DNA from: Trichocoleus sp. FACHB-40
Lineage (GTDB): Bacteria; Cyanobacteriota; Cyanobacteriia; Cyanobacteriales; FACHB-T130
Assembly (NCBI RefSeq): GCF_014695915.1
Contig: NZ_JACJPF010000024.1
Span: forward strand, 1-64,000
Direction: 5' to 3'
Length of the DNA: 64,000 nt
Made by a program: the position numbers and the translations under genes. This document shows, in pieces, positions 3 through 13,910 of the stretch. The first letter of the stretch is position 1, and each line of letters starts with the position of its first letter. Under the pieces are notes generated by a model that was not told the DNA's origin, did not search any database, and saw nothing but the letters and a program-made list of their open reading frames with translations.

Positions 3-98
3 GAGTATTTATTACATCGGCTTTTAAATGAAGGAGAGCTGGTTATTAAGTGGGGACGAAAGCTCAAAAACAAAGGTAATGCTTTTATCACAATTTAA
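3..98 (+). CDS. C-terminal end of a reading frame entering from the left edge (partial)
   Basis: This frame is open from the first bases of the window and ends in TAA at 96-98. The visible 31 residues (EYLLHRLLNEGELVIKWGRK and on) are basic and look like real coding sequence. It overlaps the start of the DndB-like frame, so it is either the tail of an upstream gene or the N-terminal half of the same DndB-like gene broken by a frameshift. The family cannot be named from so short a piece. Confidence 0.35.
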   Translation, partial: EYLLHRLLNEGELVIKWGRKLKNKGNAFITI

Positions 99-1044
99 AT
101 GCACAACAGCTTATCAAGTCGAACCTGCTTATCTGCAAAGCTTACCCAAGGAAAAAATTGGTATTGAGTTCATCTGCGCGATCGCTGCTGGGGAAACCCG
201 CGAACAAGCAAGGCGACGGGTGAGATCGATCTTTGTTCATGTCAACCTGATGGCTACACCTTTGAGCAAAGGCCAGTTAGCACAGCTGAATGAGGATGAT
301 GGTTTTTCGATTGTTGCTAGAAAAATTGCTGTCACCCATCCGCTTTTGCAACAGTACACAGATCGCAAGCCTCGCGTTAATTGGAATAGTGCGACTGTTG
401 CAGCAAAGTCAACAGTTTTGACGACGTTGCAAGCTCTCAAAGATATGTCTGAGCGATATTTGGGGCAAAAGTTTCCTCACTGGAAACCCTTGGAAAAAGG
501 TCTAATTGCCATGCGGCCAGAGGATGAGGAACTGAAGGAGGGGATAGAGGATTTTCAGGAGCTTTTCGATAATTTGGCAAACCTTCCAAGTTATCAGATA
601 CTCGAAGACATGGATACGCCACAATTACGAAGGTTCAGTTTTGAAAAGGATGGCGGCGAAGGAAATATGCTTTTCCGTCCTGTTGGTCAAGTGGCTTTAG
701 TTCAAGCTCTGGGAATTTTGGTATTTAGGAAAGGATTATTGCTGGAAGACATTTTTAAGAAGCTGCGGAAGTTCGACCTGGAAGGCGGATTTAGTGGTAT
801 GGAGTACCCGCAATCTCTGTGGTATGGGGTTTTGTATGACCCAAATAAAAAGCGGGTGCAGGTTGCTGGACGGGAGCTGGCGGCGAGGTTAGTGATTTAT
901 ATCCTGGGTGGAATTCAGGATCAGATGGAACGTGCGGAACTTCGCAAGGTTCTAGCTGATGCAAGAACTATTGAAAACAAAACAATAAGTTTTGATGGTA
1001 AGTTTGTTGAACCCAAAGCAGTAGGTTTGCCACCTATTCTGTAA
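28..1044 (+). CDS. DndB/DGQHR-family-like protein, C-terminal part
   Basis: The centre matches the region that follows the DGQHR motif in DndB-type proteins: a segment reading IFVHVNLMATPLSKGQL (about residues 68-84) and then LNEDDGF, as in the family's N-x-x-x-T-P-L-x-x-x-Q and DEDD blocks. DndB proteins act as regulators in DNA phosphorothioation systems. The DGQHR motif itself is absent from this frame and would lie just upstream, so the visible protein is probably the C-terminal two thirds. ATG at 28 follows an in-frame stop at 25-27; ATG at 79, preceded by AAAGG, is an alternative start. Convergent with the HNH nuclease, the stop codons almost touching. Family placement rests on the neighbouring Dnd-type genes as well as on sequence. 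Confidence 0.55.
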   Translation: MKESWLLSGDESSKTKVMLLSQFKCTTAYQVEPAYLQSLPKEKIGIEFICAIAAGETREQARRRVRSIFVHVNLMATPLSKGQLAQLNEDDGFSIVARKIAVTHPLLQQYTDRKPRVNWNSATVAAKSTVLTTLQALKDMSERYLGQKFPHWKPLEKGLIAMRPEDEELKEGIEDFQELFDNLANLPSYQILEDMDTPQLRRFSFEKDGGEGNMLFRPVGQVALVQALGILVFRKGLLLEDIFKKLRKFDLEGGFSGMEYPQSLWYGVLYDPNKKRVQVAGRELAARLVIYILGGIQDQMERAELRKVLADARTIENKTISFDGKFVEPKAVGLPPIL

Positions 1045-1986
1045 CTATACTTGAAATACATTTTCGCGATGCCACTCAAAAGCTTTCTTATCTGGCAAAC
1101 ATTCTTTTTCATTTGGCAGTAGGAGTTTTTGCCCATGAAAATATTTTATAGGTTTAGCGTGAGGAGATTCCTCCACCAAATTATTGCTAACTATAATTTT
1201 GTATTCTTCATCAATAGTAAACCAACCAATATCAAATGCCCAATGATGATTTTTACAAAATGATATTCCATTGTTGATGCTACTATCATAAAATCTGGCA
1301 AAAGGTTTTATGTGTGCGCCATCTACAACATTTTGATTTATTGAATTAGTAACTTTAAGTTTACAAAACGCGCATCTGTAATCATAAATATGTACAACGG
1401 CTTTTCTGAAAAAAGCATCTCTAATTAGCGATTTTTTTAATGTCGCTTTCGGTATATTATTTATGCTTTCTGATTTACCGAATAATTGTGTTTCTATGGT
1501 TGAAATATGAAAGTTTTGATTGATTTGTAAAATTTCTATAGTCTTATTTTCTTTAAAAGAAAACCAAGCTCCCACAAGTGCATCAAGTAATTGTTTTCTA
1601 TAAATTTCATCTTGCAGAAAATCAAATAATTCACTGTCCAAATATGCGTAATCAACAGCCGCTTTTAGCTTGTTAATTGTTTTAGGTTGTATACCATTGA
1701 ATTCAGGCTTAAATTTTAAATGCCAAAATTCATCTCCTTGTAGATGCAGAAAGGGATAATGTAAACCACCTTTGTAAGTCGTAGAGCCTAATATATTCCA
1801 ATATCTCTCAAATGTTTCAATCAATTCATTGTCAACTGGAATCTGATTATTAGTAATCAAATTCCGCCCAATTAAATCAATTACAGATAAAACTAATATC
1901 GGCTTGTAGTGAGCATCACCACGTTTACGACTACTACTTACATTAAGTTTAGAAAAACGTTGGCAATAGTAGATAACATTTTTCAT
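1045..1986 (-). CDS. HNH endonuclease with N-terminal sulfur-binding domain (phosphorothioate-dependent restriction type)
   Basis: 313 residues. The N-terminal half has the pattern of ScoMcrA-like sulfur-binding domains: HYKPILVLSVIDLI (about 27-40), an aromatic GLHYPFLHLQGDEFWHL stretch (about 94-110) and a YAYLDSELF helix. The C-terminal half is an HNH nuclease: CAFC (about 204-207), DGAHIKPF (about 222-229), then NGISFCKNHHWAFDIGWF with the HH pair and the metal-binding context. Such proteins recognise phosphorothioated DNA and cut it, so they act as a restriction partner or attack foreign modified DNA. The gene is AT-rich compared with its surroundings. It lies downstream of the Dnd-associated protein 4-like gene on the same strand, with a perfect palindrome between them. 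Confidence 0.75.
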   Translation of the reverse strand: MKNVIYYCQRFSKLNVSSSRKRGDAHYKPILVLSVIDLIGRNLITNNQIPVDNELIETFERYWNILGSTTYKGGLHYPFLHLQGDEFWHLKFKPEFNGIQPKTINKLKAAVDYAYLDSELFDFLQDEIYRKQLLDALVGAWFSFKENKTIEILQINQNFHISTIETQLFGKSESINNIPKATLKKSLIRDAFFRKAVVHIYDYRCAFCKLKVTNSINQNVVDGAHIKPFARFYDSSINNGISFCKNHHWAFDIGWFTIDEEYKIIVSNNLVEESPHAKPIKYFHGQKLLLPNEKECLPDKKAFEWHRENVFQV

Positions 1987-2040: not shown

Positions 2041-2077
2041 ATCATAAATAATGTTAAAATTTAACATTATTTATGAT
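2041..2077. promoter_or_regulatory. 37-bp perfect palindrome between two dnd-type genes
   Basis: Two 18-bp arms (2041-2058 and 2060-2077) are exact reverse complements around one central base. The repeat covers the last codons and stop of the upstream gene on the minus strand and ends 55 bp before the start of the HNH nuclease. It is almost pure A/T (core ATAATGTTAAA), without a GC stem or strong U-tract. An operator or a weak hairpin controlling the nuclease fits better than a standard terminator; this role is inferred. Confidence 0.5.
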
Positions 2078-2541
2078 AAAAATTTAGTAATATCAAATTC
2101 TTCTACTAGCTGTTCCTTTTTCATCCGCTCAGAACTTAAAAATAATAAAATTCGCTCTGAGTAGTCAACTGCTCCCCGCAACTCGTTTTGCAAAATTTCA
2201 AGTCCTCCATTAGCATACTCTTCAAATATATGGGTGCGTTTATCTTCATGTTCTTCGTTTTTAGAAGAGAGAATTTTGATATCTTCAGTTTCATTAACTG
2301 CTAATAATTTTATTACTATGTCATGTCCTATTGATATAAAATGTTCTTGTGGTATCGGAGAAAGCTCTTTTTTTGAAGGTTCCCCCAAAGGAACTCGTTT
2401 TTTATGCTTTGCACCCAACGCTGCTGCAAAGGCGATCACTTCTACATAAGTTTGGAAAGCTCCAGTTGTGTCATCCGATGCAACTAAGGCTTTAACTAAA
2501 TCAGCTTTATCTTTAGCAACTTTGATTCTATTGGTAGCCAT
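2071..2541 (-). CDS. Dnd system-associated protein 4-like
   Basis: 156 residues, starting MATNRIKVAKDKADLVKALV. The length, the motif FAAALGAKHKKRVP (about 52-65) and the central AKDKADL/YANGGLEIL pattern resemble the small protein called dnd system-associated protein 4, which occurs beside DndBCDE genes and whose molecular role is unknown. No signal peptide or membrane segment is visible. It sits upstream of the sulfur-binding HNH nuclease on the same strand. DndE, also small, is shorter and has a different start pattern, so I do not call it that. Assignment is from remembered family features and context. Confidence 0.6.
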   Translation of the reverse strand: MATNRIKVAKDKADLVKALVASDDTTGAFQTYVEVIAFAAALGAKHKKRVPLGEPSKKELSPIPQEHFISIGHDIVIKLLAVNETEDIKILSSKNEEHEDKRTHIFEEYANGGLEILQNELRGAVDYSERILLFLSSERMKKEQLVEEFDITKFLS

Positions 2542-4777: not shown

Positions 4778-5434
4778 TTAACTTTTGCTAAATCTTTGGA
4801 GTAACCAGCGAGTAATTGCCCCATCATCCTCTGTTTGACTGCGTTGCAGTGCTTCTTTAACTAAAGCTATTTGTAATCCCGGTAACACCAGCGACTCGTG
4901 TATTTCACCGCTGCGCCCTTCAGAGATAGAGAATGCGATCGCGTCCCTTAAATTAGCATCAACAACCCAATATTCTCCTACTCCCGAACGTTCGTATAAT
5001 AACCGCTTTCGCCCCAAATCATCACTAATAGTAGATGCACCAATTTCTACCGCCAACGTAGGCGGATTGTACTCATTCAAATCAACAGGTGAATTAGTTT
5101 CAGGAGGTATATTCAACTCCAAACCGATGTAGAAAGCCAAGTCAGGTTGAAATTCATCTAAACCTGCTTTCCTAAAACTGGTATTGGTAAAAACAACAAT
5201 CGGAATATTTTTAATAGTTGCATAAACAAGAATAATGTACGAAACAATTGAATTGTGACGTCCGTGTCGAGTCCCTACTGCTGCCATTTCAATCCTCATG
5301 TACCCTTTATGGTAATAGAACCTTCCTTTTTCATAATTTGGGCTATTAGCAAATGCTACAAACTCATCCCAACTGGCTTTTACCCAGGTATCCGTCACCA
5401 AATTCTGCACATTGGGCGCTGAACTAGAAACCAT
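4778..5434 (-). CDS. Uma2-family (DUF820) putative endonuclease
   Basis: 218 residues with the Uma2 restriction-like fold pattern: FQPDLAFYI (the PD acid), LAVEIGAST (the E-x-G/S element), then RKRLLYERSGVGEYWVVD with the conserved lysine and the Y-x-x-x-GV-x-EYW block. Uma2 proteins are abundant in cyanobacteria and are predicted PD-(D/E)XK nucleases of unknown role. The start overlaps the end of dndD by 11 bp, so the two are probably translated together. That coupling is unusual for these normally scattered genes and may mean a role in the Dnd system. Confidence 0.85.
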   Translation of the reverse strand: MVSSSAPNVQNLVTDTWVKASWDEFVAFANSPNYEKGRFYYHKGYMRIEMAAVGTRHGRHNSIVSYIILVYATIKNIPIVVFTNTSFRKAGLDEFQPDLAFYIGLELNIPPETNSPVDLNEYNPPTLAVEIGASTISDDLGRKRLLYERSGVGEYWVVDANLRDAIAFSISEGRSGEIHESLVLPGLQIALVKEALQRSQTEDDGAITRWLLQRFSKS

Positions 5435-7493
5435 AATCGACCTCTACAATTTCCGTATATTCAAACTCATTCGGGCTTTGCCTCACCAAAGGATAGATAT
5501 TTCCATTTATCTCAATTGAATCTTGTTCGCATTCAGGCTTAGAAGAATAATAAATCAACACATACTCTCTACCTATTCTATCGGCTATTTCTTCGGCAAC
5601 TTCACCCCGCCACTGAGTTTTCGTCACCAAAACCACCAATTGATTTGCTAATTTTGGAATTATCTTAGCAATTTGCCGCCGATAAATTTCATCCAAACTG
5701 CCAAACGGAGAATCCATCACAATCGGGAAGGTGTTGCTGTCTGGAACCATCAGCATTTTGTTTTGGCTCCATTCTCGCACCTTGTCAATAATGCTACCGA
5801 TAAACGATAGACTGAGAATTTGATTTTCGCCCGTAGAAGCCGCAACAGGAGCCTCTAAACCTGCGGTATTTTCCACTAGAGTCAGCTCGTATTTTTCGCT
5901 AATTCTGGGGATGTAAGGCGTAAAAGAAATGTCCGTAAATAGTTGTTGTACCCTTTTCTCTAACTCTAAGCGAAACTGTTGTTCTTGCAATATCTTCACT
6001 TTCGTTAAACGTTCAATCGCCTCTTGAGTTGCAGCAATGCGTCGCTGAGCTAAGGCTTGCTTTTCCTCATTCATTTTATGCTTAGCAATTTGTTTTCCTA
6101 AGTCTTCAATTTCAGCTTTTAAGTTTATAACTTGCTGCTGATTTCCTCCTTGATCTAGCGTTAGCTCTAAAATTCTGGATTCAATTTCATCCAATCGCTT
6201 TTGTAGGTTCCGAATATCATCACTCGGATCTTTTCTCAATTTTTCTTGAATTTTATCTAATTCCGCTTCTATCTGAGAAATATCTTGTCTAAATCTACTA
6301 ATATTAGCTTGCTCTTTGTCAATTTCTTCCCAAAAAGCCGGAGCTTGCTTATCAATTTCATCTACCTGAGCTATCATGCGAATTGCTGTTTCTTCTACAG
6401 CCGCAATTCCCGCTTTATCTAACCAACCGCTCACATTTGCATGAGCATGATTTCCATCGTGCAATTCTCCACCACAAATACAGCGTTTAGAGTTCAGTAA
6501 ATCTTTAACAAATTCTCGCGAAATTCCAGTCGTTAACTCGCCTCGCTGCTTCAAATCATCCACAATTGTCCGAAATTGAGCGGTGGTTTCCGATAGCAGT
6601 ACCGTATAACCCCGCGTAGAAATTGCTTTTTTCAGTGCTTCCTTACTTCTTTGAAGATTTTCTAGGTTGGATGCTTTCAGATTTTCTAATTCTTGGCGTC
6701 TTTCTTGCAACTGTTTTGCTGCACTGAGTTCGCGCAAACGGTGACTGGTTTCTTTTTTTAAGGTTTGTTGATTTGACAATTCTTGGATAATTTCATGCTG
6801 ACGCTGGGCGAGTTGTTCGCTTTCCTTTTCGAGTTTTTGTTGCTGTTTTAATAGTTGTTTGGTTTCGGAGTCGCCAATTGCTTCTAACTCACTTCTAAGA
6901 GTTTTCTCAGCTTCTTTCAAGTGCTTAATGGAATTATTTAAAACTTCCACACCCAGAAGCTTTTTAGTAGCTTCGGCAATTTCGGCTTTTTTATCAGAGC
7001 GAACTATTTGTTCAATTCGCTCTCCGTCAAAGAAAAAATACTGATGCAAACTACCTGGTAAAATTTGATTAATTATATCTTCTGGATGTTCTCGCGGCAG
7101 TAACCAGCGCCCATCATCTTCAGCTACATACATCAGTAATTGACTTTTGCCAGCCTCAAAGTCAGTTTCATTTTTATAAACACGGCAGAGGCGTTGAGCT
7201 TGATAGCGTCTACTGTCATGTTCCCAGCCAATTTTTACCCAGCATTCGACAGCTTCGCCCGATTTCGCTTCTGCGATCGCTCTCTTATTCACTAACTGCT
7301 CAACTGATGCAAAAGCCGCGCTAAATTTCTCGTACAGCACCCAAGAAAACGCATTTAATAAACTGGTTTTTCCTGCGCCGTTATTGCCATGAATAATAGT
7401 AGTATTCTGAACATCTCCACTAGCCAACAAAATTTCTGGGGTTTTGCCATAAAATGAGCGAAAGTTGCAAAGTTTTATTGAAGTAAGCTTCAT
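5424..7493 (-). CDS. dndD: DndD-like SMC/Rad50-type ATPase of the phosphorothioation system
   Basis: 689 residues. Walker A is GNNGAGKT (about 36-43) after a typical NFRSFYGKTPE start. Long coiled-coil arms (about 180-320 and 370-500) flank a hinge with CICGG (about 336-340). The ABC signature region is STGENQILSLSF (about 553) and Walker B is VMDSPFGSLDE (about 593-603), followed by LVTKTQWRGEV. This architecture and the GSLDE version of Walker B are typical of DndD, which supports sulfur insertion by the DndC-DndE machinery. The ATG overlaps the stop of the upstream 59-aa gene (ATGA). dndC and dndE are not visible in the window. Confidence 0.8.
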   Translation of the reverse strand: MKLTSIKLCNFRSFYGKTPEILLASGDVQNTTIIHGNNGAGKTSLLNAFSWVLYEKFSAAFASVEQLVNKRAIAEAKSGEAVECWVKIGWEHDSRRYQAQRLCRVYKNETDFEAGKSQLLMYVAEDDGRWLLPREHPEDIINQILPGSLHQYFFFDGERIEQIVRSDKKAEIAEATKKLLGVEVLNNSIKHLKEAEKTLRSELEAIGDSETKQLLKQQQKLEKESEQLAQRQHEIIQELSNQQTLKKETSHRLRELSAAKQLQERRQELENLKASNLENLQRSKEALKKAISTRGYTVLLSETTAQFRTIVDDLKQRGELTTGISREFVKDLLNSKRCICGGELHDGNHAHANVSGWLDKAGIAAVEETAIRMIAQVDEIDKQAPAFWEEIDKEQANISRFRQDISQIEAELDKIQEKLRKDPSDDIRNLQKRLDEIESRILELTLDQGGNQQQVINLKAEIEDLGKQIAKHKMNEEKQALAQRRIAATQEAIERLTKVKILQEQQFRLELEKRVQQLFTDISFTPYIPRISEKYELTLVENTAGLEAPVAASTGENQILSLSFIGSIIDKVREWSQNKMLMVPDSNTFPIVMDSPFGSLDEIYRRQIAKIIPKLANQLVVLVTKTQWRGEVAEEIADRIGREYVLIYYSSKPECEQDSIEINGNIYPLVRQSPNEFEYTEIVEVDYGF

Positions 7494-7669
7494 TTCACAA
7501 CTTCCTTTACAATTGCTAAAATATCATTATTAATATGTCCGAGACTTTTCTTATCTAGCCTGCCTTTTTCTAGCTGGCACACTCGTTCGATAATTTGTTG
7601 CACTTCCGGTGAAGCTGACTTTATTGGCTCTTGCACATCATTTATATTCGCTTCGTTTGTCATTTTCAT
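7490..7669 (-). CDS. 59-aa protein translationally coupled to DndD
   Basis: The frame runs from ATG at 7669 to TGA at 7490-7492 and overlaps the dndD start as ATGA, the classic sign of coupled translation. An AGGG sequence lies 5' of the ATG; a second ATG at 7663 would give 57 residues. The protein is mostly helical and charged (SPEVQQIIERVCQLEKGRLD in the middle) with no cysteine pair, signal or membrane segment. I do not recognise it and it does not resemble DndE. By position it is a candidate accessory subunit or regulator of DndD. Confidence 0.65.
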   Translation of the reverse strand: MKMTNEANINDVQEPIKSASPEVQQIIERVCQLEKGRLDKKSLGHINNDILAIVKEVVK

Positions 7670-7724
7670 GCCACCCTGAAAGATTACTTAATTTTAGCTT
7701 AAATTTATAAAAGCATAAAGTGGT

Positions 7725-7863: not shown

Positions 7864-9399
7864 TTACAAATCCAACAATTCATAGCGCTTTTGCAAAGCC
7901 AATAATTTCATTCTGGCTTCTCCTGCATTGTCAGCTAAATCGGCAAATTCTACAAAGCGCCGCAACTCCTTTCGCAGCAAATTTCTCTCTACTTCAAAAG
8001 TGTCTCTATCTAAAGTTGGAGGCAGTACAATTGTGTCAAATAGAGTAGCACGTTCCTTGCCTGGATGAGGGCGCAAAATTCGCCCTCGACGCTGAATAAA
8101 TTGGCGTGGATTGCTACTACTCGCCAAAATTACCGCGTTTTGAATTGCTGGAATATCGACACCTTCATCTAAACAGCGAATAGCAACTAAACCCTGTAAT
8201 TCGCCATTTTCAAATTGTTGCCGCAAATTCTCTCTTTCTGACAAAGGTGTTTCGGCAGTGTAGGTATTAACGCGATAACCCAGTTCTTCTCCCAGAATTT
8301 TAACAACAGCTTTGAATTGGCGTGAAACGAAATTATTCGAGTTAGCAAAATCGCTATGTACGGAACCATCACCGCAATAAAATAAGGTGTGGGAAGTATC
8401 CAGGCGTTGACTCATTAACTCGCGCAAAGCTTCTAACTTATTAGCAGCAGCGCCAATTAACCTCGCCCGCTTCATCAACAACGGCTTCAATTCTTCATTG
8501 TCTTCAAAATTTGCCGCAATATTATCCCGTTGTTTAAACAGAAGATGTCTGCCAATACTGGCACTTAGTTTGGTATAAGTACGCGCTTCCGCTTCTGTTA
8601 GTTCTACGAGTATGGGATAATAAAGATAATGTACCAGCGCCCCCTGTTGAATTGCATCTTTCAGGGTAAACTCTGGTTTTATAACTGTGCCAAAGTAATC
8701 AAATAAAGATTGCGTACCTGCATCATCAAAATAGCGTTCTGGTGTTGCCGAAAGTCCTAAACGCAACCCAATACTAGAAGGTAAACTTTCCTCTAAACGT
8801 CGTGCGCCGAGGTTATGGGCTTCGTCTCCCACAATTAAAGTTTTTGGGGGAAAATACTTTAATTGCGACTGCAACCCCTCACCGATCAGCGTGGAATTTG
8901 TAGTAATGACTGTGAGAAAATGTTGGTTGCCAGAACGCAAGTTGTAAAGTTGCGTCGATAGCTGACTTTGCCAGCTGCGGAGATTCTCAAAAGCTAAGAC
9001 TGGTTCTAATCCAAATTTTTCGCATTCTCGCGCCCATTGCGTCACCAAATGCCGATATGGGCAGACTATAAGCAACACTTGCAAGCCGATTTGTTGATAC
9101 AGTTCAGTTGCGATCGCTAATGCCGCAATAGTCTTGCCGCTACCAGTCGCCATCTTCAGCGTACCACGCCCTTTGTTGGCAAACCAATTAGTAACAGCTT
9201 CCCGCTGATACTGTCGCAGCTGAATAGATGGTGGCATTCGGGGACATCCCTTTCGCGGTGGATTTCCCTCGGTTGAGTAGCTGCCCTTATTTTCGCCCGC
9301 TACAGGTAATCTTAATCTGAACTGAAGTCCTTCAAATCGGGGAGTTGCCTTGGGAGGAATCGTAGGCGTTAGTTTCGGGGCATTGTAGGCGGCATTCAT
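7864..9399 (-). CDS. Superfamily 2 helicase-like DNA phosphorothioation system restriction protein
   Basis: 511 residues. Motifs: RQYQREAVTNWF (Q-like, about 62-73), MATGSGKT (motif I, about 82-89), DEAH (about 190), GLSATPER (motif III, about 215), LDEGVDIPAI (motif V) and QRRGRILRP (motif VI, about 436). The order and the text around IQNAVILASSSNPRQFIQRR match the helicase-like protein annotated in cyanobacterial dnd loci as the phosphorothioation system restriction enzyme. No separate nuclease domain is obvious, so the cutting activity is not shown by sequence. The first 55 residues are low-complexity and proline-rich; translation may begin further in, at MPPSIQLRQY. Confidence 0.75.
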   Translation of the reverse strand: MNAAYNAPKLTPTIPPKATPRFEGLQFRLRLPVAGENKGSYSTEGNPPRKGCPRMPPSIQLRQYQREAVTNWFANKGRGTLKMATGSGKTIAALAIATELYQQIGLQVLLIVCPYRHLVTQWARECEKFGLEPVLAFENLRSWQSQLSTQLYNLRSGNQHFLTVITTNSTLIGEGLQSQLKYFPPKTLIVGDEAHNLGARRLEESLPSSIGLRLGLSATPERYFDDAGTQSLFDYFGTVIKPEFTLKDAIQQGALVHYLYYPILVELTEAEARTYTKLSASIGRHLLFKQRDNIAANFEDNEELKPLLMKRARLIGAAANKLEALRELMSQRLDTSHTLFYCGDGSVHSDFANSNNFVSRQFKAVVKILGEELGYRVNTYTAETPLSERENLRQQFENGELQGLVAIRCLDEGVDIPAIQNAVILASSSNPRQFIQRRGRILRPHPGKERATLFDTIVLPPTLDRDTFEVERNLLRKELRRFVEFADLADNAGEARMKLLALQKRYELLDL

Positions 9400-9770: not shown

Positions 9771-12700
9771 TTATACCTTCTCAATACAAGCTTTTAGCTG
9801 TTCGCTGAGAACCTGAACATGAGGTTTCTTTAGCATAGTTAGATGATTGCCAGGAATATTATGAATTTCCACCCCTCCAACAGCTAGATTGCTCCAGCCC
9901 ATACTTGTATCTTGCTCCGTTTTTAACTGAACGCTAGTCTTAAAAAGAGTAATTCGATTCGGGTAGACTTGTGGAGTATAGTTGAGAGTTGCTTCGCTGT
10001 TAGCATGGAAAACGCGAAGCATAGGTTGAATTGTTAACTCTCTTAAAATCTGCGACCTAGACTCCTCAGACATGAGATTACCTATAGCCTCCTCGCCCAA
10101 TATCGAGCGCCAGAACAGATTTTTCTCCAGCAGCAGAACCAACTTATTTAAAATAGGAAAACGACATAGAAAACTCTGATACTCGTTTTTACTATCAGTA
10201 AGTAAATAAAAATAATCTATAATAAATGACCATATATATCGCGTCGCTATGGTAAAAAGAAACCTGAAACCATCTCTAAAAGAAGGTTGATTATCAGAAC
10301 CTGGGGCTAAAGTATCAAGCATAGCAACTAGACCGACTTCATACCCGGATTTTTGCAATTGTTGAGCCATTTCAAAAGCAACCAAACCTCCAAAAGACCA
10401 CCCTCCTAAAAAATAAGGGCCTTTTGGCTGCACCACGCGCAACGCTTCAATATAATAAGCTGCCATATCCTCAATGCGAGTTATTGGGGGCTGTTCTCCG
10501 TCAATACCTCGCGGTTGTAACCCATAAAAAGGCTGATTTTTGCCCAAATGATACGCTAATTCGTAATAAGGGAAAACTACACCAAAAATAGGATGCACGC
10601 AGAAAAAAGGTGGATTTGAACCTTTAGGTTGAATTGCAACTAAAGGCGACCAAGACCGAGAATTATTTTCTACAAATAAAGTGCTTGCTAAACTTTCAAC
10701 TGTCGGATTTAAGAAGAGGGTAGATAGCGGTAACTCGCGTTTAAACTGCTTGTATACCTCATCCATGAGGCGTATAGCCAGCAGGGAATTTCCACCTAAG
10801 TCAAAGAAGTTATCGCCAATACCTACACGCTCAATGTTAAGAACTTCAGCCCAAATTTTTGCTAAAGTTGATTCTGTAGAAGTACGAGGAGCAACGTGTA
10901 AGGTTAAATTCAAGATTTCAGATTTTAAATTGAATGGTGTAGGTAATGCTAGACGATCTACTTTTCCATTAACAGTCAGTGGTAGAGAATCTATCAATAC
11001 AAAAAATGAAGGTACCATGTAATTTGGTAACTTCTTCTTCAGGAAATCGCGAATTTCAATGGTGGTTAACGCCTGATTTTGCTGCGGTACAATATAAGCT
11101 ACTAAACGCTTATCATCAGGTCTATCTTCACGCACAATTACCACCGCTTCTTTAACTGCTGGGTACTGCCTCAGAACCGCCTCACTTTCTCCTAATTCGA
11201 TGCGAAAACCGCGAATTTTAACCTGTTCGTCAATGCGTCCTAAAAACTCAATGTTTCCATCTGGTTTAAACGTCGCTAAGTCACCTGTTTTATAAAGACG
11301 CTCGGTTCTACTCTCCTCTTTAAGGGGGTAGAAAGAAGAATTTACCTGTATTTGTGCTTCATTTTCTATTTTTACTGCCTTTATAAAAGGGCTAGGAATA
11401 AACCGTTCAGCAGTTAATTCCGGACGGTTTAGATAGCCGCGTGCTAGTCCATCACCGCTGATGTACAATTCGCCAGTAATACCGATAGGTACTGGCTGTA
11501 AATATCTATCTAATATATAAATTTGAGTATTAGCAATTGGGCGACCGATGGGCGGCTTTTCGCTATTGTCATTAATTTCTGCAATCGTAGCCCAAACAGT
11601 TGCTTCAGTTGGCCCATAAGCGTTAAAAAATCTGCGATCAGAAGCCCATTTGTTGACAATATCTTTAGAACAAGATTCACCTGCACAAATTATAGTATGC
11701 AGTGCGGGAAGTTCTTCTTTCGGTAATACCGCAAGTACAGCAGGCGGAAGGGTAACGCAAGTAATATTATTGTCTTTGCATAGCTTTATTAAAGCTTGTC
11801 CAGGCAAAAGAGGTTCTTTTTTAGCTATGTAAAGCGTTGCTCCTATTCGCAATGCCATGATAATTTCAAAGATTGAGGCATCAAAACTCAAGGAGGCAAA
11901 TTGTAAGATGCGATCGCTTGGCTGTAACTTGAAAACTTCGATCTGAGCTTCTCCTAAGTTAGACAGTCCTCTGTGCTGTACTAAAACACCTTTTGGTTTT
12001 CCGGTTGAGCCAGAGGTGTAGATGACATAAGCTAGATTATTAAGTGTTACGTTACTGGTTGGGTTGTGTTGGGGATGGTAAGCGATCGCATCCCAGTCCG
12101 TATCCAAACATACAGACAAACCGTGTTGGCGATCCCCCCAACAGTCTTTCCAAAGGGGAGCTAATATAGATTGCGTTAATAAGATGGATATTTGAGCGTC
12201 TTCCAGCATGAAATTAAGACGTTCTTGCGGATAGCTTGGATCTAAAGGTAGGTATGCTCCACCTGCTTTGAGGATGCCCAATAGTCCCACTATCATATCT
12301 ACAGAACGTTCTACACAAATGCCCACTAAAACGTCTGGAACTACACCCAGTTGTTGCAGGTGGTGTGCAAGTTGATTGGCTCTGATATTCAATTCGCGGT
12401 AGGTTAATTGCTGATTTTGAAAAATGAGCGCGATCGCATCCGGACTTTGCTCTACCTGCGCTTCAAATAACTGATAGAAACACTGCTCTATTTTAGATGC
12501 TAAATCTTGGGGTTTCGATTTATCCTGGTTAAATATTAATAGTTGTTTCTGCTCTGCATCGGTCAAAATTGTTAATTCAGAAAGGCGCTTTTGTGGATTT
12601 GCAACAATACTTTCCAGCAGCGTTTGGTAATGTCCCAGCATCCGAGTAATAGTAGCGTCATCAAATAAATCAGTGCTGTATATTACTTGCCCTTTAAAAC

Positions 12701-13910
12701 TTTCCGGCGATTCCCACAAGTGAAACTCTAAATCGAACTTGGCGCTTGGGCTGTCAAACTCCAACTGCGAGAGCGTTAAACCCGGCAATTCTAACGCCTC
12801 AATGGGAGTATTTTGCAAACTAAATGCAACTTGAAACAAGGGATGTTGGCTGAGGTTTCGCTCTGGATGCAGTTCCTCTACTAGCTTCTCAAAGGGTAAG
12901 TCTTGATGGGCATAAGCTCCTAGCGTAACCTCCCGGACTCTGCTCAGCAATTCCAGAAATGTTGGATTGCCTGATAAGTTAGTACGCAGCACCAAACTAT
13001 TGACAAAAAAACCAATTAATCCCTCAATTTCGCGACGGTTGCGGTTAGCAATTGGTGAGCCGACAACAATATCTGATTGCTGAGTGTAGCGATAGAGTAA
13101 GGTTTGAAATGCCGCCAAGAGAGTCATGAACACAGTTACCCCTTGGCGCTGCGAAAGTGCCTCTAGTTCGTTACTCAGGCTTTTCGGTAACTCTAGAAAT
13201 TGCGTCGCGCCTCGGTAGGTTGGAGCGGTTGGGCGAGGTTTGTCAGTGGGCAAGTTCAGTGAGGGAATATTGTCCAGCTGCTGCTTCCAGTAGGCTAACT
13301 GAGTCTCTAGAACCTCACCCTGTAGCCATTCGCGCTGCCAGTCGGCAAAGTCTGCATATTGGATCGGCAGTTCTGGCAAGGGCGATCGCGTGTTGTTGGC
13401 AGCTGCATACAGCGTTCCTAGTTCCCGAATTAGCACCCCAATCGACCAACCATCACAGATAATGTGGTGCAGATTCAGCAGGAGTACATATTCTGAAGAG
13501 TCTAACTGTAGCAGCATCACTCGCAGTAACGAGTCCTGAGATAAATTGAAAGGACGCGATCGCTCCTCGGTAGCTATTCGTCGAGTTTCCGCTTCCCGTT
13601 CGGTTGCTGGTAGCGAACGCAAATCTACTACTGGCAGAGGAATGGTTAAGCTGGGAGCAATTACCTGGACGGGTTGCCCATCAAGCATCCTAAAAGTGGT
13701 ACGCAAAGCTTCGTGGCGACGCACGATTTCGTTGAACGTCTCTTCCAGCGCCGAAGTGTTGAGCGAACCTTTTAGGCGAAGTGCAGCCGCTACATTGTAA
13801 AAGGTATTGCCTGGGAAGAGTTGGTCGAGAAACCACAATCGCTGTTGAGCAAAAGATGCTGGAAATACAAAAACTTCCGTTTCTTCAGCTTTCATTTTGT
13901 TGTTGTTCAC
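9771..13910 (-). CDS. Single-module nonribosomal peptide synthetase (C-A-PCP-TE)
   Basis: 1379 residues. Condensation domain with SFAQQRLWFLDQL (about 18-30) and HHIICDGWS (about 147-155); adenylation domain with YTSGSTGKPKG (about 628), FDASIFE and NAYGPTEA (about 763); carrier domain with LGGNSLLA (about 1040), the serine carrying phosphopantetheine; thioesterase with GWSFGG (about 1170) and late histidine in GNHLTM (about 1352). Aligning the binding pocket by eye to GrsA gives D-A-F-T-I-A-A-V-W, most like aromatic or large hydrophobic codes, but this is tentative. A condensation domain with no upstream module implies that a partner or a preloaded acyl donor comes from elsewhere. The first codon is GTG at 13910; ATG at 13895 is an alternative. 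Confidence 0.9.
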   Translation of the reverse strand: MNNNKMKAEETEVFVFPASFAQQRLWFLDQLFPGNTFYNVAAALRLKGSLNTSALEETFNEIVRRHEALRTTFRMLDGQPVQVIAPSLTIPLPVVDLRSLPATEREAETRRIATEERSRPFNLSQDSLLRVMLLQLDSSEYVLLLNLHHIICDGWSIGVLIRELGTLYAAANNTRSPLPELPIQYADFADWQREWLQGEVLETQLAYWKQQLDNIPSLNLPTDKPRPTAPTYRGATQFLELPKSLSNELEALSQRQGVTVFMTLLAAFQTLLYRYTQQSDIVVGSPIANRNRREIEGLIGFFVNSLVLRTNLSGNPTFLELLSRVREVTLGAYAHQDLPFEKLVEELHPERNLSQHPLFQVAFSLQNTPIEALELPGLTLSQLEFDSPSAKFDLEFHLWESPESFKGQVIYSTDLFDDATITRMLGHYQTLLESIVANPQKRLSELTILTDAEQKQLLIFNQDKSKPQDLASKIEQCFYQLFEAQVEQSPDAIALIFQNQQLTYRELNIRANQLAHHLQQLGVVPDVLVGICVERSVDMIVGLLGILKAGGAYLPLDPSYPQERLNFMLEDAQISILLTQSILAPLWKDCWGDRQHGLSVCLDTDWDAIAYHPQHNPTSNVTLNNLAYVIYTSGSTGKPKGVLVQHRGLSNLGEAQIEVFKLQPSDRILQFASLSFDASIFEIIMALRIGATLYIAKKEPLLPGQALIKLCKDNNITCVTLPPAVLAVLPKEELPALHTIICAGESCSKDIVNKWASDRRFFNAYGPTEATVWATIAEINDNSEKPPIGRPIANTQIYILDRYLQPVPIGITGELYISGDGLARGYLNRPELTAERFIPSPFIKAVKIENEAQIQVNSSFYPLKEESRTERLYKTGDLATFKPDGNIEFLGRIDEQVKIRGFRIELGESEAVLRQYPAVKEAVVIVREDRPDDKRLVAYIVPQQNQALTTIEIRDFLKKKLPNYMVPSFFVLIDSLPLTVNGKVDRLALPTPFNLKSEILNLTLHVAPRTSTESTLAKIWAEVLNIERVGIGDNFFDLGGNSLLAIRLMDEVYKQFKRELPLSTLFLNPTVESLASTLFVENNSRSWSPLVAIQPKGSNPPFFCVHPIFGVVFPYYELAYHLGKNQPFYGLQPRGIDGEQPPITRIEDMAAYYIEALRVVQPKGPYFLGGWSFGGLVAFEMAQQLQKSGYEVGLVAMLDTLAPGSDNQPSFRDGFRFLFTIATRYIWSFIIDYFYLLTDSKNEYQSFLCRFPILNKLVLLLEKNLFWRSILGEEAIGNLMSEESRSQILRELTIQPMLRVFHANSEATLNYTPQVYPNRITLFKTSVQLKTEQDTSMGWSNLAVGGVEIHNIPGNHLTMLKKPHVQVLSEQLKACIEKV

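Follow-up and report, generated by a model that had tools for sequence, protein, structure and literature searches.

Introduction

PbeABCD is a defence system that works with DNA phosphorothioation and contains an ATP-binding cassette (ABC) ATPase of the CxC type, a clade that was reportedly defined in a paper of 2020. In archaea its pbeB, pbeC and pbeD genes are strictly needed for virus protection and pbeA only in part, as described in the accessible part of PMC6459918. The gene position before pbeC is already in print as PbeB or a 'small protein' (accessible parts of PMC6459918 and PMC10853773), and the latter paper calls PbeB 'mostly disordered'. Here we analysed a window of 64,000 nucleotides from the cyanobacterium Trichocoleus sp. 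FACHB-40 (RefSeq assembly GCF_014695915.1, contig NZ_JACJPF010000024.1, positions 1 to 64,000), in which a small open reading frame lies directly upstream of an ABC-ATPase gene. This frame is probably the pbeB of a cyanobacterial PbeABCD defence system, a conserved coding gene whose product has a core predicted to be a hairpin and would dock on the ATPase PbeC.

Results

The frame runs on the minus strand from 7669 to 7490 and comprises 59 codons followed by TGA. The features at its two ends are as follows.

7490..7669, minus strand: pbeB, read as 59 residues in the earlier note on this DNA; likelier start at 7663-7661 (57 residues)
7490..7493, minus strand: ATGA overlap of the pbeB stop and the pbeC start
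7674..7677, minus strand: AGGG, a possible ribosome-binding site

Both signals that the earlier note had reported, the start-stop overlap and the AGGG before the ATG, are indeed present. The stop codon TGA (7492-7490) shares bases with the ATG (7493-7491) of a 689-residue frame at 5424-7493, and the AGGG (7677-7674) stands 4 nucleotides upstream of the first pbeB ATG. The product is more likely to have 57 than 59 residues, because 27 of 49 homologues are read in this way, with a start that corresponds to the second ATG of the window (7663-7661), and because AGGGTGG precedes the equivalent of this second ATG by 8 nucleotides in two genomes of the same family. The homologue start was taken as the ATG nearest to the aligned one, and the 57-residue count leans on this choice.

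The length of the frame alone is unremarkable, as 91 frames of at least 40 residues overlap the first 20 kb; it is conservation that lifts it above chance. The ratio of non-synonymous to synonymous divergence (pN/pS), calculated over the last 48 codons aligned without gaps from the C-terminus, was 0.37 when summed over the pairs with the window. The nearest relative differed from the window pbeB by five synonymous and no non-synonymous changes, and pN was below pS in all ten further pairs, of which L070/L076 carries little weight because it is misaligned (unequal ends, gaps disallowed). Homologues were found in 50 of 60 searched genomes (the window's own counted) at E<=0.1, with a best match of 4.1e-5 or better in each of the 50. 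Thus the claim that the 59-residue frame is a gene holds, and the check that had been proposed for it, a search for a conserved short frame upstream of the ATPase in other cyanobacteria, returned a conserved one. The PbeA-type family TIGR04095 occurred in exactly the same 50 genomes and was absent from the other ten, and TIGR04062 was present in 49 of the 50.

Extending the search to 386 genomes of the phylum gave pbeC (E<=1e-60) in 94 and strong pbeB matches (>=41 bits) in 92, all of which also hold pbeC. At E<=0.01 pbeB was matched in 120 of the 386; 28 genomes whose best match was weaker than 1e-4 were dropped, most of their matches being in frames of 800-900 residues. The pbeC of one genome lacking a strong pbeB match (G104) is a fragment with a stop, and in the other such genome (G133) PbeC is distant and a 63-codon frame occupies the place of pbeB. 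One of the 28 dropped genomes (G295), which lacks pbeC, gave 22.7 bits in a 97-codon frame that may be a pbeB remnant. Of the 105 genomes sampled from the window's order (its own counted) 90 have PbeC, compared with 4 of the 281 others.

The gap between pbeB and pbeC was 0 (the ATGA overlap) in 61 of the 92 pairs, 3 in nine (the profile match being one residue short in seven of these) and 4-230 base pairs in 13. Four of the nine gap-3 pairs were read in detail (L052, L057, L060 and L077) and all four have ATGA, as do 44 of the 49 loci that were read in detail. These 49 leave out L082-L084, with weak matches in frames of 250-403 residues, and L078, a truncated second copy. In the remaining nine of the 92, pbeB lies more than 400 base pairs from pbeC, on the opposite strand or on another contig. 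Four of the nine belong to one genus (g13), whose divergent pbeB sits in a longer frame (117-182 codons) and is separated from pbeC by over 100 kb or placed on a different contig. In the two g13 loci that were read, apart from the 49, it follows pbeA (L080, about 5176-5550; L081, about 5044-5397).

These data also bear on the possibility that the frame serves translational coupling only, or is a chance frame, with a functionless peptide. Its shortness would suit such a role, and the overlap would couple the translation of pbeC. Its conserved residues, the purifying selection, the nine genomes that keep pbeB away from pbeC, and the homologues in archaea and other phyla described below argue so strongly the other way that we give this idea almost no credence.

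That the conserved frame is PbeB is well supported by the genes around it, which are listed here together with the other genes of the locus.

5424..7493, minus strand: pbeC, CxC-type ABC-ATPase of 689 residues with a CIC zinc-hook motif (PADLOC PDLC02753, 1153.6 bits)
7864..9399, minus strand: pbeA-type superfamily 2 (SF2) helicase of 511 residues (TIGR04095, 665.6 bits, above the cut-off of 600; PADLOC PbeA)
2071..2541, minus strand: TIGR04062 'DNA phosphorothioation-associated protein 4' of 156 residues (200.1 bits)
4778..5434, minus strand: Uma2-family putative endonuclease (Pfam PF05685, 4.4e-19)
1045..1986, minus strand: HNH protein resembling restriction endonucleases that bind phosphorothioate (PT) DNA (NF045808, 116.8 bits, below the cut-off of 180)
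28..1044, plus strand: DGQHR-domain protein (TIGR03187, 99.7 bits, above the cut-off of 58.85)

With a TIGR04095 helicase upstream, PbeC adjoining and TIGR04062 downstream, the small frame stands where pbeB is expected in a pbeABCD locus, which also contains Uma2-family, HNH and DGQHR genes. The TIGR04062 protein appears to hold the role of PbeD, the DndE cognate, judging from its position and size; PADLOC gave no match for it. Two frames separate pbeC from this gene in the window, and the same family stands directly 3' of PbeC in the plasmid loci L091, L092 and L096.

The earlier note had called the adjoining gene dndD. This label does not stand: the DndD equivalog model TIGR03185 gave 150.8 bits with the 689-residue protein, under its cut-off of 245.85, and the true dndD of the genome (704.8 bits) is on another contig (G000:C27), where it adjoins dndE and dndC. 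The gene is therefore pbeC and was ruled out as dndD. In a nine-row alignment of PbeC (A2), C336, C338 and G339 (first-row numbering) are invariant.

This result bears on the proposal that the small protein assists or regulates the canonical modification complex with DndD. DndD and PbeC do co-occur (in 95 and 94 of the 386 genomes respectively, 91 in common). However, the adjoining ATPase is PbeC, 3 of the 50 pbeB genomes have no dndC match at E<=1e-60, and the distances between PbeB sequences track those of PbeC (distance-matrix correlation r 0.79) more than those of DndC (0.43) in the 28 genomes for which a DndC sequence was used. The partial correlation between PbeB and PbeC was 0.74, and none of 2000 permutations reached the observed correlation. 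We thus regard a DndD partner as very improbable. What survives of the earlier proposal is the idea of a dedicated partner, as conservation upstream of the ATPase, co-occurrence and co-variation all fit one; the ATPase that it would serve is PbeC, not DndD.

Several observations weigh against the assignment as the PbeB of a PbeABCD locus, or against the partnership with PbeC. The nine genomes with a distant pbeB depart from the coupled arrangement, and pbeA lies within 400 base pairs upstream in only 22 of the 49 loci, although the genomes in question do carry it (in 29 of the 49 stretches fetched it is on the same strand as pbeB). The co-variation with PbeC fits a partnership, yet would also follow from joint inheritance of neighbours. 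Searches of NCBIfam, Pfam and PADLOC at E<=1 gave no known family for the small frame, so the PADLOC PbeB model (PDLC02708) misses the window protein; it likewise misses all ten plasmid PbeB-position proteins that were given to it. We take this as a sign of a narrow model rather than as decisive.

To place the protein among its counterparts in other phyla, we examined small frames next to PbeC outside cyanobacteria. A tblastn search with PbeC matched 27 plasmid records. In 12 of the 13 plasmid loci that were read (one of them cyanobacterial) a small frame lay within about 20 nucleotides of PbeC, and in a Halococcus plasmid locus a transposase lies between the two. A small frame preceded PbeC in 20 of 22 further loci (Firmicutes, Actinobacteria, KSB1 and others). 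With a profile of cyanobacterial PbeB, 7 of 25 other PbeB-position proteins outscored all 5,000 shuffled decoys (best decoy 16.4 bits): those from Firmicutes (52.5 bits), Natrinema (38.6), KSB1 (33.7), Halorhabdus (27.9), Arthrobacter (24.8) and Streptomyces (24.1), and that of the long-form cyanobacterial locus L175 (22.7). Window-type PbeB is thus similar in sequence to the PbeB-position proteins of Natrinema and Halorhabdus. A further point against the assignment is that the other 18 of the 25, including three of the five haloarchaeal ones, did not exceed the best decoy; two of these three gave 14.8 and 11.9 bits, and that of Haloprofundus was not among the best 30 matches.

AlphaFold modelling from 40 aligned rows predicted two helices in PbeB, at residues 19-34 and 44-55, with a mean predicted local distance difference test score (pLDDT) of 78.9 and a predicted template modelling score of 0.58. 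By block, pLDDT was 83-89 for residues 21-57, and the first ten residues had a mean of 53. The conserved core is therefore predicted to be a helix-loop-helix hairpin, a model that does not fit the label 'mostly disordered' given in the accessible part of PMC10853773, at least for this branch. A Foldseek search of the PDB with the model gave no match at E<=0.001 and 15 at E<=10, which are uninformative for a hairpin. By sequence, PbeB matched only two peptide deformylases in the PDB (E about 0.1), and PbeC had no PDB match at E<=0.001.

The same model is relevant to the proposal, made in the accessible part of PMC10853773, that PbeB is the sole restrainer of the system. Its N-terminal part is variable and modelled with low confidence, and could be a sensing tail. 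In contrast, the core is conserved and predicted to be helical, and deletion of the archaeal pbeB ended protection (PMC6459918, accessible part), whereas removing a sole restrainer would instead be expected to be harmful. Moreover, the window PbeA has no counterpart of the first ~240 positions of the full PADLOC PbeA models, the part that is a nuclease according to the papers. Scanned against Pfam at E<=0.1, one long PbeA (that of L091) showed no nuclease domain in this N-terminal part. The TIGR04095 frames of the 60 genomes have 457-551 codons, save one of 383 (G015) and three of 688-730. These three, in G022, G031 and G054, represent an additional long form that is accompanied by a small frame and a PbeC-like gene of its own. 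On balance a role as the sole restrainer seems unlikely, and a docking role on PbeC remains our preferred explanation.

A possible parallel for such docking was found in the Dnd system. In Burkholderia, Rhizobium phaseoli and Aureimonas plasmids a short dndC (375, 379 and 379 residues respectively) is followed by a gene of 70-71 residues and then by dndD. The Burkholderia small protein belongs to the Pfam family Sp-DndD (PF20306; 3e-15) and also matches the DndC model at positions 383-444 of 447 (E 0.0053), and a profile of the three detached proteins aligned with the DndC tail at 85.9% probability. A Moraxella protein from the search that gave the detached genes is Sp-DndD as well (2.1e-11), with neighbours annotated as hypothetical. 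In the plasmid dnd operons that were read, the segment before the ATPase gene is the C-terminal tail of DndC. A Nonomuraea dndD is preceded by a 44-residue frame that matches no NCBIfam family.

When Sp-DndD was searched against the 60 genomes, the 15 best matches (E<=0.0054) all mapped to the C-terminus of DndC frames. The cut-off was exceeded in three genomes (G018 with 30.5 bits). The window's genome reached 23.6 bits, below the cut-off, and in a Pfam scan residues 438-482 of its DndC (L088:11351-12994, minus strand, G000:C27) matched Sp-DndD with E 5.3e-4, again below the cut-off. AlphaFold placed helices at 448-468 and 471-483 in this tail, with pLDDT of 37-57 by ten-residue block. DndC had a single, chance-level match in a sequence search of the PDB.

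The search of the 60 genomes with Sp-DndD also gave weak matches (E 0.11 and 0.47) to two small frames, each flanked directly by a long-form pbeA and a pbeC-like gene; as 6 of 14 control genomes likewise had matches at E<=1, such weak ones would mean little by themselves. Scanned singly, however, these two long-form PbeB proteins had Sp-DndD as the best of 24,736 Pfam models (E 0.0074 and 0.023), and it was also the best Pfam match of a Rhizobium PbeB-position protein (E 0.0052). It is difficult to attribute three matches to a single family among 24,736 to chance. Furthermore, a profile of all PbeB-position proteins found its best place in the whole of DndC at the tail, with a score of 21.5 compared with a mean of 12.0 and a maximum of 18.5 for 60 column shuffles, and in a second control the profile enlarged by four proteins scored 19.3 against a shuffle maximum of 18.9.

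Taken together, these matches raise the possibility that PbeB, Sp-DndD and the C-terminal tail of DndC form one family of ATPase-docking hairpins, encoded just upstream of every DndD/PbeC-type ATPase and either fused (DndC) or free (Sp-DndD and PbeB), a reading that we hold only tentatively and would sooner doubt than accept. Much stands against it. The confidence of the DndC tail model is too low to prove a hairpin. Only 3 of the 23 PbeB-position proteins scanned (of 25; L121 and L127 were left out) matched Sp-DndD, at 15.3-17.3 bits compared with a gathering threshold of 27.2, and in scans of this kind other members gave E 0.0011-0.003 with Pfam families that are unrelated. The window PbeB did not match Sp-DndD at E<=1, and in a Pfam scan of 50 window-type members Sp-DndD was not among the 25 families listed of 26. 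Aligned with the tail plus the detached proteins, the all-PbeB profile gave 51.8%, which fell to 38.5% after the addition of four more proteins, and a diverse PbeB set failed the second control (19.5 compared with 23.4 for the best of 100 shuffles). The cyanobacterial PbeB set alone found its best place elsewhere in DndC; it gave 7.5% with the tail and 0.6% with the two Sp-DndD-like long-form PbeB proteins. All PbeB sets gave 0.4-1.5% with the three detached proteins alone. For the window's own PbeB, the sequence comparisons make a tie to Sp-DndD only suggestive. A link of Sp-DndD with the DndC tail was not found in the literature searched, which included the accessible part of PMC10853773, a paper of 2024; the 2020 paper on the CxC clade was outside that search.

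As to the remaining genes of the locus, the Uma2-family gene overlaps the 3' end of pbeC by 11 base pairs. A same-strand Uma2 gene was seen in 13 of the 49 pbeB loci, with an overlap of 11 or 14 base pairs in ten of these, and could belong to the cyanobacterial Pbe operon as an additional member. The HNH gene adjoins the TIGR04062 gene, and this pairing is found again in L035 and L054. The DGQHR protein gave 18.0 bits with DndB (PF14072; cut-off 29.1) and is DndB-like only below the Pfam cut-off. A 1379-residue frame (9771-13910, minus strand), judged from its translation, resembles a module of a non-ribosomal peptide synthetase with a terminal thioesterase.

Discussion

How might so small a protein act? 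Because of its predicted hairpin, its position, its co-occurrence with PbeC and the DndC parallel, we infer that PbeB is a stand-alone docking piece for the ATPase. Its hairpin would dock on PbeC as the DndC C-terminal tail may on DndD, and docked PbeB would hold the scanning unit of ATPase and DndE-like protein together with the effector helicase. The hairpin would then be fused to the effector enzyme in Dnd and be a separate protein in Pbe. The start-stop overlap would couple the translation of pbeB and pbeC and so match their amounts. As pbeB, pbeC and pbeD are each strictly needed in archaea (PMC6459918, accessible part), PbeB is likely to belong to the core with the ATPase.

The analysis brings to light a gene that escapes the PADLOC PbeB model and replaces the label dndD by pbeC. 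The description of this gene as overlooked, made in the earlier note, is right only in part: a relative on a Pseudanabaena galeata plasmid, WP_181016079.1, the sole annotated close one found, is in RefSeq as a hypothetical protein. The accessible part of PMC8569181 describes dnd from Cyanobacteriales, holds that Cyanobacteria have no PT restriction systems and suggests that dnd first served there as an antioxidant; the paper's text does not contain the word 'pbe'. A widespread PbeABCD partner argues against the premise in that part of the paper that there is no PT restriction. If docking is true, it offers a simple way to test how a single ATPase family works in both DNA sulfuration and defence. 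If, in addition, the three proteins were one family, the hairpin would be the part through which effectors of sulfuration and of defence connect to a common scanning motor.

Among described proteins the nearest is the PbeB of PbeABCD (66 residues in Haloterrigena jeotgali A29; PMC6459918, accessible part), which the window protein resembles in its place before pbeC, in the PbeA-type gene upstream and in size. Its likeness to archaeal PbeB rests on the two haloarchaeal PbeB-position proteins and not on the H. jeotgali protein itself. It differs in that it is missed by the PADLOC model, in that the window PbeA is a helicase only, and in that two frames part pbeC from the gene in the PbeD role. 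Sp-DndD (PF20306), the 'DNA modification system-associated small protein' of NCBI, is likewise small and directly before a DndD/PbeC-type ATPase; however, window-type PbeB has no sequence match to it, and it accompanies a short DndC and DndD rather than PbeA and PbeC. The C-terminal tail of DndC (TIGR03183) is also encoded just before the ATPase, and a PbeB profile that includes other phyla aligns there best, but the tail is fused to a sulfurtransferase and its homology to window-type PbeB is suggestive only. Finally, LmuC, the 'middle component' of Lamassu (PMC10586767, accessible part), is a small protein encoded between an effector and a coiled-coil ATPase, a likeness to PbeB in layout only.

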